DNA of 39,485 bases from an uncultured Candidatus Marinamargulisbacteria bacterium (GTDB lineage: Bacteria > Margulisbacteria > Riflemargulisbacteria > GWF2-35-9), in the NCBI GenBank assembly GCA_903910705.1, contig CAIWAN010000098.1:1-39485 (forward strand), in the 5' to 3' direction. The translations under genes and the position numbers were made by a program. How positions within the stretch are numbered: the first letter of the stretch is position 1; each line of letters starts with the position of its first letter. The notes below the pieces were generated by a model. That model saw only the letters and a program-made list of their open reading frames with translations, was not told where the DNA came from and did no database searches. Positions 1 through 1,195 of this stretch are shown piece by piece.

Positions 1-1195
1 AAGAAAAAAACCTACGAATACTTAGAGAAGGATTAAGACGCATTAATACCGTTATTATTTGTCGATGCGTATACGAAAAAAACCTACGAATACTTAGAGA
101 AGGATTAAGACCAAGAGGTGTCGCAGTACAAAGACGCGTCGACGAAGAAAAAAACCTACGAATACTTAGAGAAGGATTAAGACCTAATTTCATTGTAGTT
201 ATTACCATCCGCAAACGCGAAAAAAACCTACGAATACTTAGAGAAGGATTAAGACCCTTTCCTGCCCCGCCGTTTATCGGCTGTCGGGCTAGAAAAAAAC
301 CTACGAATACTTAGAGAAGGATTAAGACCGGCCTATGGCCTAAAATGCTTTTAGTCGCTTTACTGAAAAAAACCTACGAATACTTAGAGAAGGATTAAGA
401 CAGGCGTTATCAACAAATAACAATCAACGTATGAACCGAAAAAAACCTACGAATACTTAGAGAAGGATTAAGACTCATAGTTCCCCCTCCTTCATTGCTA
501 TTTGAAGCGAAAAAAACCTACGAATACTTAGAGAAGGATTAAGACTGACCCGTTAGGCATTACCATTCTATATGTTGGCTGAAAAAAACCTACGAATACT
601 TAGAGAAGGATTAAGACGGCGGGGATTATCGATAGGTTTCGGCTCTGGAACGAAAAAAACCTACGAATACTTAGAGAAGGATTAAGACGGGATTATCGAT
701 AGGTTTCGGCTCTGGTATCTATGAAAAAAACCTACGAATACTTAGAGAAGGATTAAGACGTGGAATTTTGAAGGCTGTTTTTTCCCCGCTTGCTGGAAAA
801 AAACCTACGAATACTTAGAGAAGGATTAAGACTCCAGGATAGCCAAAAGAATGATCAGATAGCCGGAGGAAAAAAACCTACGAATACTTAGAGAAGGATT
901 AAGACGGCTTAACTTCGCCACGCTCGATGCTTGCGTAATGAAAAAAACCTACGAATACTTAGAGAAGGATTAAGACAGTCGTCCGTGTCGATCCTCTTGC
1001 TGTATGTTTTCGAAAAAAACCTACGAATACTTAGAGAAGGATTAAGACTCTTCTTTTTTCTCGCTCATTATTTCCTCCTCATAATGAAAAAAACCTACGA
1101 ATACTTAGAGAAGGATTAAGACAGTCCTCGACTTTTACAGGAACACCCATAATTTCCAGAAAAAAACCTACGAATACTTAGAGAAGGATTAAGAC
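1..1195 (+). CRISPR. CRISPR array, right-hand part, 17 repeats
   Basis: The 37-bp repeat starts GAAAAAAACCTACG, continues AATACTTAGAGA and ends AGGATTAAGAC. It occurs unchanged 17 times, starting at 3, 75, 147, 219, 292, 365, 438, 509, 581, 652, 723, 796, 869, 940, 1012, 1086 and 1159. The 16 complete spacers are 34-37 bp, a size usual for type I and III systems rather than II or V. The array runs off the left edge. The last 8 nt, ATTAAGAC, resemble the ATTGAAAC-type 5' handle left by Cas6, so the plus strand is probably the crRNA strand and the leader lies off-window to the left; this is inference. CTTA/TAAG inside the repeat can form only a weak stem. The trailer-side repeat shows no decay. 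No cas gene is in the window, so the subtype is open. Confidence 0.98.

Follow-up and report, generated by a model that had tools for sequence, protein, structure and literature searches.

Adjacent overlapping CRISPR spacers in a type III-A-like array, likely derived from two related source sequences

Introduction

Overlapping, near-identical spacers have been described among the newly acquired spacers of Sulfolobus, and overlaps of this kind are rare in natural arrays (PMC3468723). The Sulfolobus spacers stem from the same strand and site with a shift of a few nucleotides, their start being fixed by a CCN PAM while the far end varies. In the type III systems of Thermus thermophilus, Streptococcus thermophilus and Staphylococcus epidermidis, which lack a reverse transcriptase (RT), acquire spacers of about 36 nt and are PAM-independent, sites become enriched through selection or through DNA ends and structure (PMC7515739, PMC9048733). 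In type III, uptake is preferentially from free DNA ends and from regions that are structured or transcribed (PMC9048733), and selection for spacers from early-transcribed regions has been described (PMC7515739).

Here we analyse a 39,485-nt stretch of DNA (the window) from a Marinamargulisbacteria-related genome, in which two neighbouring spacers overlap. As in Sulfolobus, they share strand and site and are shifted by a few nucleotides; unlike in Sulfolobus, neither end is fixed, as would be expected of PAM-free uptake, and there are sequence differences between the two. The system is like the three type III examples in having no RT fused to Cas1 and in its spacer length, and probably also in its PAM independence and in the enrichment of particular sites.

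Results

Two neighbouring spacers share a 27-nt run

The window opens with a CRISPR array whose left end is truncated at the contig edge (Table 1). Its 37-nt repeats (GAAAAAAACCTACGAATACTTAGAGAAGGATTAAGAC) are perfect copies of one another, and its spacers are unique and of uniform length (34-37 nt). Spacer 9 reads GGCG, GGGATTATCGATAGGTTTCGGCTCTGG, AAC, and spacer 10 reads GGGATTATCGATAGGTTTCGGCTCTGG, TATCTAT; the exact 27-nt run common to both, offset by 4 nt, is as an earlier note on this sequence had described it. The divergence that the note saw beyond this run, AAC in one spacer and TATCTAT in the other, is present but smaller than stated: only 3 nt can be compared (AAC vs. TAT, 1/3 identical), the last 4 letters of spacer 10 having no counterpart in spacer 9, and the overlap as a whole is identical at 28 of 30 nt, with the mismatches of spacer 10 to spacer 9 at positions 716 and 718. 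The difference can be written either as two substitutions or as a 1-nt indel plus one substitution. A 27-nt run has a probability of about 7e-15 per pair in random sequence, and the longest run common to any other pair among the 20 complete spacers of the genome is 8 nt.

Table 1. Features of the CRISPR array, in positions of the window
Feature	Positions	Strand	Remark
CRISPR array	3..1195	+	17 identical repeats, 16 spacers
Spacer 7	475..508	-	reverse complement with Shine-Dalgarno-like motif and ATG
Repeat preceding spacer 9	581..617	+	
Spacer 9	618..651	+	34 nt; probably the younger of the pair (nearer the cas/leader side)
27-nt run within spacer 9	622..648	+	common to spacer 10
Repeat separating spacers 9 and 10	652..688	+	
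Spacer 10	689..722	+	34 nt; probably the older of the pair
27-nt run within spacer 10	689..715	+	common to spacer 9
Spacer 15	1049..1085	-	reverse complement with Shine-Dalgarno-like motif and ATG (AGGAGGAAATAATGAGC)

The motifs in spacers 7 and 15 suggest that the crRNAs of these two spacers are antisense to mRNA or gene starts, a hint at antisense crRNAs that comes from these two spacers only. The open frames of the spacers are uninformative as to their strand of origin (35 vs. 34 on the two strands).

The array is part of a type III-A-like system that has adaptation genes of its own

The genome assembly (MAG) is fragmented into 119 contigs, and the array itself appears to be split between the contig of the window (C98) and a second contig, C111, which ends in five copies of the same repeat, immediately preceded by cas2 and a leader-like stretch of 140 nt. 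C111 encodes Cas10, a Fic protein, Csm2, Csm3, a Schlafen/AlbA_2 protein, Csm4, a CARF-RelE effector, a weak Csx3-like protein, Cas6, Cas1 and Cas2. The type III-A genes cas10/csm1, csm2, csm3 and csm4 are all on this contig, with PADLOC matches to Cas10a (2.8e-85), Csm2 (2.1e-9), Csm3 (1.1e-63) and Csm4 (1.3e-52). No separate csm5 gene was found in the MAG, where the only trace is a sub-threshold match to TIGR01899 over 25 positions inside csm3; we therefore call the system type III-A-like. Within this cas locus (L009:12463-L010:12620), the Fic gene lies between cas10 and csm2 and the Schlafen/AlbA_2 gene between csm3 and csm4; the locus also holds the CARF-RelE effector gene.

Cas1 (326 aa) has no RT-fused part and is too short for one, and Cas2 has 103 aa. 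With cas1 and cas2 present and no RT fusion, this is presumably a type III system that adapts from DNA by means of its own genes; the genome has a single cas2 and gave no sign of a second adaptation module. As to the host, the relatives of a 908-aa protein encoded in the window come from Candidatus Marinamargulisbacteria MAGs (88% and 58% identity).

The direction of the array is given by the cas2-leader-repeat order on C111. The youngest spacers lie at the end nearest the cas genes, and spacer 9 would therefore be younger than spacer 10, provided that C111 and C98 form one array, as they appear to do. Joined directly, the two contigs would create a spacer of 29 nt, below the 33-38 nt range seen, and some sequence is therefore probably missing between them.

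No source of the spacers was found in the collections searched

The shared core does not occur elsewhere in the host's own genome at up to 3 mismatches, nor in 54 relatives. In IMG/VR, no match was obtained with the exact 27-nt pattern, with a 21-nt pattern or with two 18-nt half patterns, and the 21-nt core had none in the genome-contig collection. BLAST against INPHARED and PLSDB (phage and plasmid sequences) gave chance-level partial matches only. When all 20 spacers of the genome were compared with the genome itself and with INPHARED, none had a convincing match, and self-targeting was rejected on the own-genome searches. Codon-degenerate patterns for the four reading frames that stay open across the shared run yielded one match in IMG/VR, L013, which was rejected as a target because its flanks and reading frames are unlike those of the spacers. 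On the opposite strand, L013:8234-8259 encodes PDPKPIEKPKP, where the reverse strand of spacer 9 encodes PEPKPIDNP, a likeness that we take to be a coincidence. Across the own genome, the 54 relatives, IMG/VR, the genome contigs, INPHARED and PLSDB, there were thus no two sequences that each match one spacer, and no match that showed the protospacer flanks. The divergence of the pair comes down to two nucleotides at the spacer end.

Overlapping divergent spacers recur in other arrays

Comparison arrays were taken near cas2 genes in the same phylum and in a cyanobacterial sample. After removal of two loci with non-CRISPR tandem repeats (L084 and L120), the set held 93 arrays with 2,887 spacers and 2,794 adjacent pairs. 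In this sample, which mixes CRISPR types and was centred on cas2 rather than on type III, there were 11 overlapping non-identical pairs with at least 24 matching nt, spread over 7 of the 93 arrays (about 1 in 13). Eight of the 11 are divergent rather than perfect overlaps and one is adjacent. By this base rate, overlapping and slightly divergent spacers are a known, uncommon kind of event, and adjacency is rarer.

The one adjacent pair consists of spacers 5 and 6 of L049 (8865-8972) in a genome of the same phylum (G013), which are set apart by one substitution and by a 4-nt indel that lies in a CTTT-type repeat. It resembles spacers 9 and 10 in its adjacency, common strand, about 25 common nt and divergence towards one end; its 32-nt repeat is different from the one here and resembles type I-C repeats. 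The same genome also carries a 70-repeat array (L050:10334-14903) in which several groups of spacers, on both strands, are diverged versions of one site (spacers 8, 19, 35, 45 and 50; 27 and 30; 33 and 62). The pattern would fit a family of varying targets from which spacers were taken up again and again.

If 20 spacers sampled one 40-kb target uniformly, the probability would be about 0.035 for some overlapping pair and about 0.004 for an adjacent one. These values make it likely that a site was preferred, that protective spacers were selected or that the target was small. A DNA hairpin was rejected as the cause of a favoured site; neither spacer folds notably.

Discussion

The explanation that we hold, with somewhat more confidence than doubt, is successive uptake at the same site and on the same strand from two closely related variants of one invader. 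A Marinamargulisbacteria-related host with a type III-A-like system would have acquired spacer 10 first, from DNA and with its own Cas1-Cas2, and a later, retained event would have added spacer 9 from a close variant of this invader, a phage or plasmid, with the difference between the sources lying just past the shared run. Such recurrent uptake would need only a favoured site (a free end, or a structured or transcribed region) or selection for a protective spacer, together with ordinary variation of the invader. The overlap, the cas context and the lack of a self target are observed, whereas the order of uptake, the two variant molecules and the favoured site are inferred.

That two related source sequences stand behind spacers 9 and 10 is likely, as the earlier note proposed; its further statement that they cannot come from the same DNA molecule was too strong. 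Two diverged copies on one invader genome, such as paralogous, terminal or tandem repeats or copies of a mobile element, would account for the 28/30 identity equally well, and a plus-strand frame that encodes GLSIGFGSG in both spacers is glycine-rich, as in repeat proteins, a weak point since other frames are open too. This alternative has no positive evidence, no target having turned up in any collection searched, and we regard it as unlikely, though deserving of some weight; that the spacers stem from separate molecules is plausible. It is improbable that a single source sequence was sampled and that the last 2-3 nt of one spacer were altered later by array mutation, imprecise processing of the prespacer end or polymerase error at integration. 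The differences are indeed confined to the last 3 nt of spacer 9, but one spacer would then differ at two of three positions in an array that shows mutation nowhere else and whose 17 repeats are perfect, and no mechanism is known to us by which untemplated letters would be added at that end of a spacer in an RT-less system. An invader protospacer reading ...CTCTGGAAC... would contradict such an alteration. To an assembly artefact, in which the MAG array would be a consensus that merges spacers of two strains, we give very little credence. The fragmentation of the MAG and the break in the array between C111 and C98 speak for it; against it, the spacer-repeat-spacer unit spans only 105 nt, its repeats are perfect, and in each spacer the shared run has unique sequence to its left and right, which makes the k-mer context distinct.

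Uptake of spacer 9 from a second variant, as we favour, could also have been target-activated: the crRNA of spacer 10 would have recognised the variant invader, and cleavage at that place would have created the DNA end that gave rise to spacer 9. Spacer 9 overlaps and follows spacer 10, and the known mismatches would fall at crRNA positions +28 and +30 relative to spacer 10. Given the right strand, spacer 10 would thus probably still recognise the source of spacer 9, so that spacer 9 can be explained with no escape from spacer 10 at this site. However, adaptation in the systems tested requires only Cas1 and Cas2, and one pair cannot separate priming from a favoured site. We consider priming very improbable here, and equally so the reading of the pair as a trace, left in nature, of primed adaptation by a type III-A-like system, with spacer 10 steering the uptake of spacer 9 at the same site of a variant still recognisable to it. 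Of the earlier suggestion of primed or hot-spot acquisition, a recurrently sampled site is plausible in view of the overlapping non-identical pairs in the comparison arrays, whereas priming is unproven in type III and listed as an open question (PMC9048733). The 4-nt shift was also thought to limit where the PAM can be; the type III systems tested are PAM-independent, and the shift probably sets no such constraint.

Whether type III adaptation is steered to sites that are already targeted is among the questions that a 2022 review lists as open (PMC9048733), and adjacent overlapping pairs collected across many type III arrays with cas1 and cas2 could test it. By itself, the pair described here is best seen as ordinary evidence that related invaders were met more than once, uncommon but not a new phenomenon.
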